NCBI RefSeq assembly: GCF_900111485.1
Contig: NZ_FOIC01000012.1
Coordinates: 1-64,000 of the forward strand
Source: Natrinema hispanicum
Lineage (GTDB): Archaea; Halobacteriota; Halobacteria; Halobacteriales; Natrialbaceae
DNA: 64,000 nucleotides
Direction of reading: 5' to 3'
Below, one piece after another: positions 60,996 through 63,776 of the stretch. The translations under genes were made by a program, and so were the position numbers. Each line of letters starts with the position of its first letter. Within the stretch, counting starts at the first letter, position 1. Below the pieces are notes generated by a model that saw nothing but the letters and a program-made list of their open reading frames with translations, had not been told where the DNA came from and ran no database searches.

Positions 60996-61790
60996 CTAGA
61001 CACGCCGCGTCAGGTGTGCTCGAACCGTCCGTTGACAGTCGCCACAGATGCCGTACAGCTGTGTCGCGGTCGACAGCAGCGGGTATCGAGCGGGACCGCT
61101 CGCGTAGATCGATTCGATGACTGATCGATACTGTGGTCCGCTCGGCTCGTCTCGAGGCGTCGACCCGGTAAGCTGTGCTTGCCGCCGGCTGAGACACGTC
61201 TTGAGGCGATCCTGATACGTCTCGAGCCGCTCGTGTTTGGCTCGCAAGTCGTCGAAGCCACACTGTAAGAACGACTCGTCAACCGTCATCTGTAGCCAGC
61301 CGACGATTTCGTCGATCTCCGCAATTGCCGTCTCGAGCGTCGACCGTTCTTCCCGTACGATCTCCCGTCGAGCCGCAAGCTCCCGGCGGCTGGTCGACAC
61401 TGGCTCGAGCACCGCGGCTTTGAGTGGCGGCGTCCAGCCGGTGTCGGTCGCGAGTGCGCCGGCGACGTCTTCGGTCAGCGTGGTTGCCATCGCCTCGAAC
61501 CGCGATTCGTCCTCGCAGCCGCTACTGTGTTGTCTGACGGTTTCGTCGAACGCCGTCCTGACAGAAGCACAGTGATCGTCCGATGCCGAGGGGGTCGCTC
61601 CACGTCCCTGAATCGCCTGCGTCGCCATCGGCGCTGCCGCCTGTTGGGCCTGCAACGCAGTCGGTTGTGCGGCTGGAACCGCCCGAACGCGGTCGGCGAA
61701 CGCCTCGAGTGCCGCGTCGCGATCCGCGAGCGTCTCCCACTCCTCGGCGAGACACTCGAGCGCTCGGTGGGCCGTCGTCGCCCCCGTCAT
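60996..61790 (-). CDS. Haloarchaeal helical protein (DUF7260-like), second gene of the iron-box operon
   Basis: A 264-residue mostly helical protein. I recall the label DUF7260. AEEWETLADRDAALEAFADRVRAVPAA is the N-terminal family-like block; about 130-195 is a coiled coil (TSRRELAARREIVREERSTLETAIAEIDEIVGWLQ, then DLRAKHERLETYQDRLKTCLSRRQ). The end has a Cys pair (YGICGDCQRTVRAHLTRRV) that could hold a metal. No transmembrane helix. It overlaps the upstream gene by four bases (ATGA), so both are expressed together under the same two palindromic boxes. Role unknown. Confidence 0.65.
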   Translation of the reverse strand: MTGATTAHRALECLAEEWETLADRDAALEAFADRVRAVPAAQPTALQAQQAAAPMATQAIQGRGATPSASDDHCASVRTAFDETVRQHSSGCEDESRFEAMATTLTEDVAGALATDTGWTPPLKAAVLEPVSTSRRELAARREIVREERSTLETAIAEIDEIVGWLQMTVDESFLQCGFDDLRAKHERLETYQDRLKTCLSRRQAQLTGSTPRDEPSGPQYRSVIESIYASGPARYPLLSTATQLYGICGDCQRTVRAHLTRRV

Positions 61791-62707
61791 CGATCCTCCG
61801 CGTGGGCGCGAGTGCAGACGAGGCCGCCACTCGTCCGCTCGTCGGTCGTGACCACGAACTGCCAGTCGCCGTCGCCGAGCGCGGTAACCTCGTGTACACC
61901 CAGCGATGCCGTCGATGGTGCCGTCCGACGCAGGATGTCGATCCCGATCGGTAGCGTCGGAAACCGCCGCTCGCCGCTGTCGATCGCGTACTCCCGCAGG
62001 GTAACGGTCCAGACGCTCTCGCTGGTCCCAGCGGCTGACTCGCGTGTCACGCCGTACGCGCCGATCAGCGACAGCGAATCCAGATATGCGAGGCTCGTCG
62101 CGACCGGATCGTCGGCTGGATCGACCGGTGAGAGGTTCGCTGCTGCCGCCCGCAGCAATCGGGTTCGCTCGGTCGCCGTGAGGTGTCGATCGAGTTCGGC
62201 TGCGATCGTCTCGAGCAACACCAGACAGAGCGCGTTTCGGTCGGTCGTCGCCTCGGCAGCGGCCAGATACGTGTCCATGATCGCCCGCTCGACGCGCTCG
62301 TGATCGCGACTCGAGAGCGCCTCGAAGACGGCACCGGAGACATCGTGGCAGAACCCGATCAGCGGGCCGTCAGTCGTCCCAGCGTGTGTTTGATCGGCCG
62401 ACCGGCGTCGCTCCCGTGCTGTCGTTGCGTGCCCGGGCGTGTCACTGGTCTGTCCCTCGATATCCGCTCGCGTCTGTTGGACGATTGGATCGTAAAACGG
62501 GAGTTGTGGATCGTATCGTCTGAGGGCGGCGCGGTACTGTTCGGTCGCGCGTGCGGCGTCCGCTGCGTCCGGACGGGTCGCGAACCGCCGCCCGGCGACC
62601 GGGACGGGCTGTTCGCCGGAGCGAGCACAGACGACGTTGTATTCCCCGTCGTCGCTGGCCAGCCGTTCGATGGAGCGGCGAATCTCTCTGAGCGTCGTTC
62701 CGACCAT
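61787..62707 (-). CDS. Haloarchaeal protein (DUF7551-like), first gene of the iron-box operon
   Basis: A 306-residue soluble protein. The beginning (VGTTLREIRRSIERLASDDGEYNVVCARSGEQPVPVAGRRFATRPDAADAARATEQYRAALRRYDPQLPFYDPIV) matches from memory the haloarchaeal family labelled DUF7551. A disordered charged linker (about 85-110) follows, then a helical domain (about 118-215; IGFCHDVSGAVFEALSSRDHERVERAIMDTYLAAAEATTDRNALCLVLLETIAAELDRHL) and a strand-rich end (SVWTVTLREYAIDSGERRFPTLPIGIDIL). No enzymatic motif is seen. ATG at 62707. Two TTTAGG-N4-CCTAAA-type boxes lie just upstream, so regulation by a DtxR-family repressor is likely. Confidence 0.65.
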   Translation of the reverse strand: MVGTTLREIRRSIERLASDDGEYNVVCARSGEQPVPVAGRRFATRPDAADAARATEQYRAALRRYDPQLPFYDPIVQQTRADIEGQTSDTPGHATTARERRRSADQTHAGTTDGPLIGFCHDVSGAVFEALSSRDHERVERAIMDTYLAAAEATTDRNALCLVLLETIAAELDRHLTATERTRLLRAAAANLSPVDPADDPVATSLAYLDSLSLIGAYGVTRESAAGTSESVWTVTLREYAIDSGERRFPTLPIGIDILRRTAPSTASLGVHEVTALGDGDWQFVVTTDERTSGGLVCTRAHAEDR

Positions 62708-62732: not shown

Positions 62733-62784
62733 TTTAGGCCAACCTAAACCACTATAAGTTCTCCGGATTTTAGGCAGACCTAAT
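62733..62784 (-). promoter_or_regulatory. Two DtxR/IdeR-like palindromes around a TATA box
   Basis: Box 1, TTTAGGCCAACCTAAA (62733-62748), and box 2, TTTAGGCAGACCTAAT (62769-62784), share the form TTAGG-N4-CCTAA with centres 36 bases apart. A TATA-like CTTATAGT lies between them (62751-62758, read on the minus strand). Box 1 covers the region between TATA and the start at 62707; box 2 is just upstream of TATA. This bracket is the expected arrangement for an iron-responsive DtxR-type repressor. Confidence 0.6.
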
Positions 62785-63026: not shown

Positions 63027-63776
63027 ATGACTACGCAGATCCCGTTCGCGATCGACTTTCACGTCCATTCCGAGGACTCCTACGACGGCCACGAGCCGGT
63101 CGAACTCATCCTCGAGCACGCCGCTGACATCGGTCTCGACGGGGTGGTCATCACTGACCACGACGAGATCGACGAGTCGCTGCGTGCTGCTGCTCTCGCA
63201 CCCGAGTACGATCTGATCGGGATTCCCGGCGTCGAAGTCTCGACCAAACACGGCCACCTGCTGGCGATCGGCGTCGAGAACCGACCGGAGCCCGGCCAGG
63301 CGTTCATGGACACTGTCCAGACCGTCCGCGAACTGGGCGGCGTCGCGATCGTCCCTCATCCATTCCAGCGTAGCCGCCACGGCGTTCGGAAACGCCATAT
63401 TGCTGATGCCGACGCGATCGAGACCTACAACTCGATGGTCTTTACGGGATACCGAAATCGGCGCGCGCGCCTCTTTGCGAATCGACGGGACTATCCCCAG
63501 ATCGGAGCCAGCGACGCCCACTACCTCCCCAACGTGGGCAAATCCTACACCGAAGTCCTCGTCACGCCCGACACGGCGTCCCCGACGAAAACCGACATCG
63601 ACGGCGACGATCTCATCGCGGCGATTCTCGAGGGCCGAACGCAAATCTACGGCAAGCGGACGCCGATTCGCAAAAGTGCCGTCCAGTACGGAAAGGGCGC
63701 GGTGCGCAAGTCGGCGTACGTGTTTACTTCGCGCGCCCCGTTACTGCCGACCGTACCGGCGTCGATGGACCGATAG
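63027..63776 (+). CDS. PHP-domain metal-dependent phosphoesterase
   Basis: A 249-residue protein of the PHP superfamily. Metal-binding motifs: FHVHSEDSYDG (about 10-20), ITDHDEID (about 45-52), GVEVSTKHGHLLAIG (about 70-84), HPFQRSRHG and the late GASDAHYLPNVG (about 167-178). It is of the short type related to TrpH/YciV and PHP-associated proteins; it may hydrolyse 3'-5' nucleotide or other phosphoesters. The C-terminal 40 residues are basic. Upstream 62785-63026 holds an AT-rich stretch and a TTTATA box at about 62963; nothing else was recognised there. Confidence 0.88.
   Translation: MTTQIPFAIDFHVHSEDSYDGHEPVELILEHAADIGLDGVVITDHDEIDESLRAAALAPEYDLIGIPGVEVSTKHGHLLAIGVENRPEPGQAFMDTVQTVRELGGVAIVPHPFQRSRHGVRKRHIADADAIETYNSMVFTGYRNRRARLFANRRDYPQIGASDAHYLPNVGKSYTEVLVTPDTASPTKTDIDGDDLIAAILEGRTQIYGKRTPIRKSAVQYGKGAVRKSAYVFTSRAPLLPTVPASMDR

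Follow-up and report, generated by a model that had tools for sequence, protein, structure and literature searches.

The window analysed here is a stretch of 64,000 nucleotides from Natrinema hispanicum (positions 1 to 64,000 of contig NZ_FOIC01000012.1). It carries a two-gene operon with a pair of short palindromes at its promoter, which we describe below as putative iron boxes:

62770..62783, distal iron box TTAGGCAGACCTAA, upstream of the TATA/BRE region, exact match
62752..62769, minus strand, core promoter AATCCGGAGAACTTATAG, a BRE-like purine stretch and the TATA-like CTTATAG (62758-62752)
62733..62748, proximal iron box TTTAGGCCAACCTAAA (core 62734-62747, TTAGGCCAACCTAA), between the TATA box and the start codon, exact match
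61787..62707, minus strand, gene 1, 306 aa, DUF7552 (residues 5-79, Pfam 4.4e-34) and DUF7551 (residues 116-301, Pfam 4.3e-63)
60996..61790, minus strand, gene 2, 264 aa, an all-helical DUF7260 protein (Pfam 9.6e-60)

Both boxes are exact copies of TTAGGYNNRCCTAA; they lie 36 bp apart, one on either side of the TATA-like word, so the view of the initial annotation that the palindromes bracket the TATA box is correct. The palindrome is perfect over 6+6 bases in the proximal box (TTTAGG..CCTAAA) and over 5+5 only in the distal one. In shuffled windows, a box with up to one mismatch is expected by chance 0.16 times per window. Gene 1 starts at 62707, 25 bp past the proximal box, and the start of gene 2 overlaps its end by 4 bp. 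A gene for a PHP-domain protein (PHP and PHP_C; 63027-63776, plus strand) lies on the opposite strand about 240 bp beyond the distal box; we do not think that it is part of the operon.

The description of the operon as DUF7551-like/DUF7260-like holds, with scores far above the curated Pfam cut-offs (213.2 bits against 52.6 for DUF7551, 202.5 against 27 for DUF7260), and has to be extended by the DUF7552 domain of gene 1 (117 against 27). Neither protein matches any NCBIfam model. The initial annotation also spoke of two helical proteins with Cys pairs, which proved accurate in part. The model of the gene 2 product is all-helical (pLDDT 85.7), while the gene 1 product is predicted to be alpha/beta, its model showing an alpha/beta N-terminal domain and a C-terminal domain (pLDDT 87.5). 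Among orthologues, the gene 1 protein has no Cys pairs; it keeps three separate cysteines (C27, C120, C161) and H121, all near-invariant, and the only conserved Cys/His columns of DUF7551 (120, 121, 136 and 161) all fall within its first third. A CxxC is indeed present in gene 2, within the C-terminal motif CxxCQRxVRxHL, but only its first Cys is invariant. A sequence search of the PDB with DUF7551 returned zero matches. The matches of DUF7260 were two de novo designed helical-bundle proteins, which we take as chance, and its model found only spectrin-like and other helical bundles, at levels seen for unrelated helical proteins.

The resemblance of the palindromes to DtxR/IdeR half-sites, proposed at the outset, is well supported. 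The one-dimer IdeR/DtxR site is the 14-bp TTAGGNNNNCCTAA, and the classical two-dimer site is the 19-bp TTAGGTTAGSCTAACCTAA (PMC8464063). Both boxes of the window match the one-dimer consensus exactly, and the flanks of the window boxes lack the second overlapping CCTAA of the two-dimer site. As with the actinobacterial operators, the targets include iron-uptake genes (see below); unlike them, the boxes are separate 14-bp units on the two sides of an archaeal TATA box, at a distance of 36 bp. Two genuine members of the DtxR family are encoded in the genome:

C65:159482, three-domain, SirR-like (HTH, metal/dimerisation and FeoA domains)
C53:13101, two domains

The third, FeoA/SH3-type domain of the first is a further likeness to the actinobacterial system. 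The choice between the two regulators by co-occurrence failed, both paralogues being found in 20 of 21 genomes. In one relative (G154) an exact box precedes the three-domain gene by about 120 bp, and the protein retains a Ser-Pro-Thr stretch in the recognition helix, presumably as in IdeR; these are weak hints which would favour the three-domain protein as the candidate regulator. The haloarchaeal DtxR-family iron regulators cited in two sources include Idr1/Idr2, SirR, Idr and TroR of Halobacterium and Haloferax (PMC11349517, PMC11218638); they belong to the same regulator family and act on the same kind of target genes as presumed here.

The genome search for the motif, which the initial annotation had called for, found exact boxes enriched; most precede siderophore and ferric transporters or one of a handful of other genes. 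Exact TTAGGN4CCTAA sites number 17 in the genome; 16 of these are TTAGGYNNRCCTAA, for which the reversed control gives 0. Over 21 genomes of the family the exact boxes total 172, against 9 for the control. With one mismatch allowed there is no enrichment in the genome (28 against 36 for the reversed control); only the exact motif is enriched. Genes next to the boxes were called from the genomic DNA and then named by Pfam. They comprise, on contig C74, a FecCD permease and the FecE ATPase that goes with it, a pair of Peripla_BP_2 binding proteins, and a DUF5059-cupredoxin lipoprotein; on C54, a binding protein and a permease of a ferric-type ABC transporter; on C53, an ABC ATPase with a TOBE domain; on C65, a DUF7552-only paralogue of gene 1 (167 aa), whose called start lies 137 bp downstream of its box (L020:6359-6999). 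On C71 an exact box directly precedes a 57-aa ORF, and a second box with one mismatch lies 26 bp further upstream (L022:5623-5845); the ORF is close to DUF7331, under the family cut-off, and adjoins the gene of the Dps ferritin DpsA, which has its own box with one mismatch.

Boxes stand at promoters of iron-acquisition and iron-storage genes, as do DtxR-type iron operators, but not every box has an iron-linked neighbour. A few precede genes without an obvious iron link (a methyltransferase, a GMC oxidoreductase pair, glycosyltransferases). Of the four Peripla_BP_2 genes in the genome, only the two of the C74 cluster have boxes nearby, and there is none near the second FecCD gene (C70). Two observations on single loci may be added. 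The lipoprotein of the C74 siderophore cluster (DUF5059 and cupredoxin, 824 aa) has paired boxes 34 bp apart upstream (L023:6572-9099), and an iron role for DUF5059 is suggested. On C54, an exact box stands just upstream of the GMC oxidoreductase/Gluconate_2-dh3 pair, and another just upstream of a family-2 glycosyltransferase (L019:3222-5428).

Of 146 genomes examined in the order, 61 contain DUF7551, and the orthologue sample comprised 80 named loci in 37 genus-level groups, the closest being from Natrinema hispanicum and N. limicola (90-91% identity). The boxes are conserved before the orthologous operons: an exact box occurs within 300 bp upstream in 37/80, while none of the 29 control palindromes, permuted at constant composition, occurs in any of the 80. 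If one mismatch is tolerated and the search is extended to 3.5 kb, taking in upstream operon genes, a box is found in 65/80 (control mean 0.8) and at one locus or more in 34 of the 37 groups. Two outcomes that the initial annotation named as refuting its view, no enrichment of the motif near iron genes and no conservation of the boxes, therefore did not occur. Orthologues without a box of their own lie mostly within or behind box-bearing operons, where the order in relatives is substrate-binding protein, FAD oxidoreductase, FecCD, FecE, DUF7551 and DUF7260; the oxidoreductase is a relative of thioredoxin reductases, and six loci also contain a DtxR-family gene. For comparison, in Haloferax mediterranei an ABC transporter and an NAD(P)/FAD oxidoreductase are part of the iron-uptake set (PMC11218638). 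Orthologues of the operon sit inside siderophore ABC import operons (FecCD/FecE/Peripla_BP_2) and share their boxes, whereas the two genes of the window stand alone, detached, with no transporter encoded.

The geometry of the promoter is conserved as well. Box pairs at the orthologous loci are almost always 34-37 bp apart; among 19 spacings between exact boxes, 17 are 35-36, one is 34 and one is 55. A TATA-like word is enclosed by 42 of 45 such pairs, against 3.7% of random 22-mers. Many single-box orthologues have the box at -15, directly before the start codon, the position to be expected for haloarchaeal transcripts that are leaderless. Both layouts fit a repressor that would block the core promoter.

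We presume that the palindromes are paired operators for an iron-sensing repressor of the DtxR/IdeR family, one dimer per box, clamping the BRE/TATA region. With ferrous iron plentiful, the holo-repressor would block TBP/TFB or the polymerase; with iron scarce, it would leave, and the operon would be transcribed along with the siderophore and ferric ABC transporters. We infer the identity of the metal, the identity of the repressor and the direction of regulation; the metal is taken to be iron from the targets of the boxes, every assignable one of which points to it. Both proteins probably act in the cytoplasm as helpers of ferric-chelate import, and DUF7552, DUF7551 and DUF7260 can be assigned to iron acquisition by the conserved boxes and by relatives inside iron-uptake clusters. 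Speculatively, iron may be received or released from the imported chelate via Cys27, Cys120, His121 and Cys161 of the DUF7552-DUF7551 protein, with DUF7260 as a helical partner in that step. Judged from the comparative evidence, the regulatory part of this explanation is in our opinion very probable. As to the handling of iron by the operon proteins, the scales tip only slightly in its favour. Taken as a whole, an iron-repressed operon under a DtxR-family regulator, encoding helpers of ferric-chelate uptake, is a reading that we hold with good confidence.

The alternative that survives best retains the iron control and drops the iron handling: the proteins would merely respond to iron and act, for example, in redox or stress signalling or in iron sparing, with the H-NOX/V4R-like fold of DUF7551 as a ligand sensor. 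The top structural matches of the DUF7551 model are indeed mostly H-NOX domains, with BcsD and the MopR/DmpR sensor domains also listed, all at Foldseek E >0.008. The similarity to H-NOX is weak: Foldseek gives E 0.012, and VIA a Z of about 6.5 over 117-291, with about 155 residues at an rmsd of 4.5. The model aligns with the H-NOX/V4R fold (the H-NOX domain of soluble guanylate cyclase beta, the MopR/DmpR sensors) over its full length from N to C, but at a Z under the level that separates real relatives. A Pfam search of the gene 1 protein at E up to 1 did not include H-NOX (HNOB), and DUF7551 has no conserved His near the position of the H-NOX proximal haem ligand, about 105 residues into the domain. 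Membership of DUF7551 in H-NOX is not supported, neither a sequence match nor the ligand His having been found; the predicted fold resembles H-NOX/V4R weakly, as a lead only.

Also in favour of this alternative are the retention of the gene by Haloferax without a box and the absence of DUF7260 near many orthologues (it is found near DUF7551 in 32 of 80 loci). None of the 8 Haloferax orthologues has a box nearby, although three sampled Haloferax genomes hold 15-23 boxes each; these orthologues have lost it, which speaks against the iron-repressor reading as well. At the Haloferax loci L125, L136-L139, L141, L147 and L158 the TATA promoter upstream of 5001 is kept, and an FAD oxidoreductase lies downstream. 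Against a purely responsive role stands the fact that unrelated genera repeatedly have the gene within a siderophore ABC operon or behind one, and we regard this alternative as possible, though rather unlikely.

Another proposal is that a manganese-sensing regulator of the DtxR family (MntR/TroR-like) binds the boxes, and that the operon belongs to the homeostasis of manganese or of mixed metals. The family does include manganese sensors, and the best NCBIfam match of the three-domain regulator is the manganese MntR model, below its cut-off; however, the actinobacterial iron DtxR model also matches this protein. The assignable box neighbours are siderophore and ferric transporters and the Dps ferritin, and no manganese importer was among the genes named next to a box. 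We consider a manganese system improbable. That the palindromes are chance or a structural feature with no regulatory role, for which only their short length speaks, is ruled out for practical purposes by the control palindromes (no orthologue reached, against 37 of 80), the fixed spacing and the multi-genome enrichment (172 against 9).

Returning to the ferric-chelate reading, its most specific form is that DUF7552-DUF7551 is a new iron-repressed cytoplasmic protein binding the metal or ferric chelate, with an H-NOX/V4R-like fold and a Cys/Cys/Cys/His site, which would release siderophore iron together with DUF7260 and the thioredoxin-reductase-like flavoprotein. We offer it as a tentative idea with the chances against it. 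If true, it would be an archaeal counterpart of the siderophore-iron reductases, unrelated in sequence to the known ones.

The regulatory principle is already known; new, within the literature searched, are the assignment of uncharacterised families to the iron regulon and the geometry of the paired boxes. In that literature we found no paper on DUF7551, DUF7552 or DUF7260. The promoter architecture of two one-dimer boxes, set 34-37 bp apart on either side of the TATA box, offers a way to delimit haloarchaeal iron regulons, and three haloarchaeal families are placed in an iron-acquisition regulon. The DUF7552-DUF7551 and DUF7260 genes are direct candidates for the step that frees iron from imported ferric chelates in haloarchaea.
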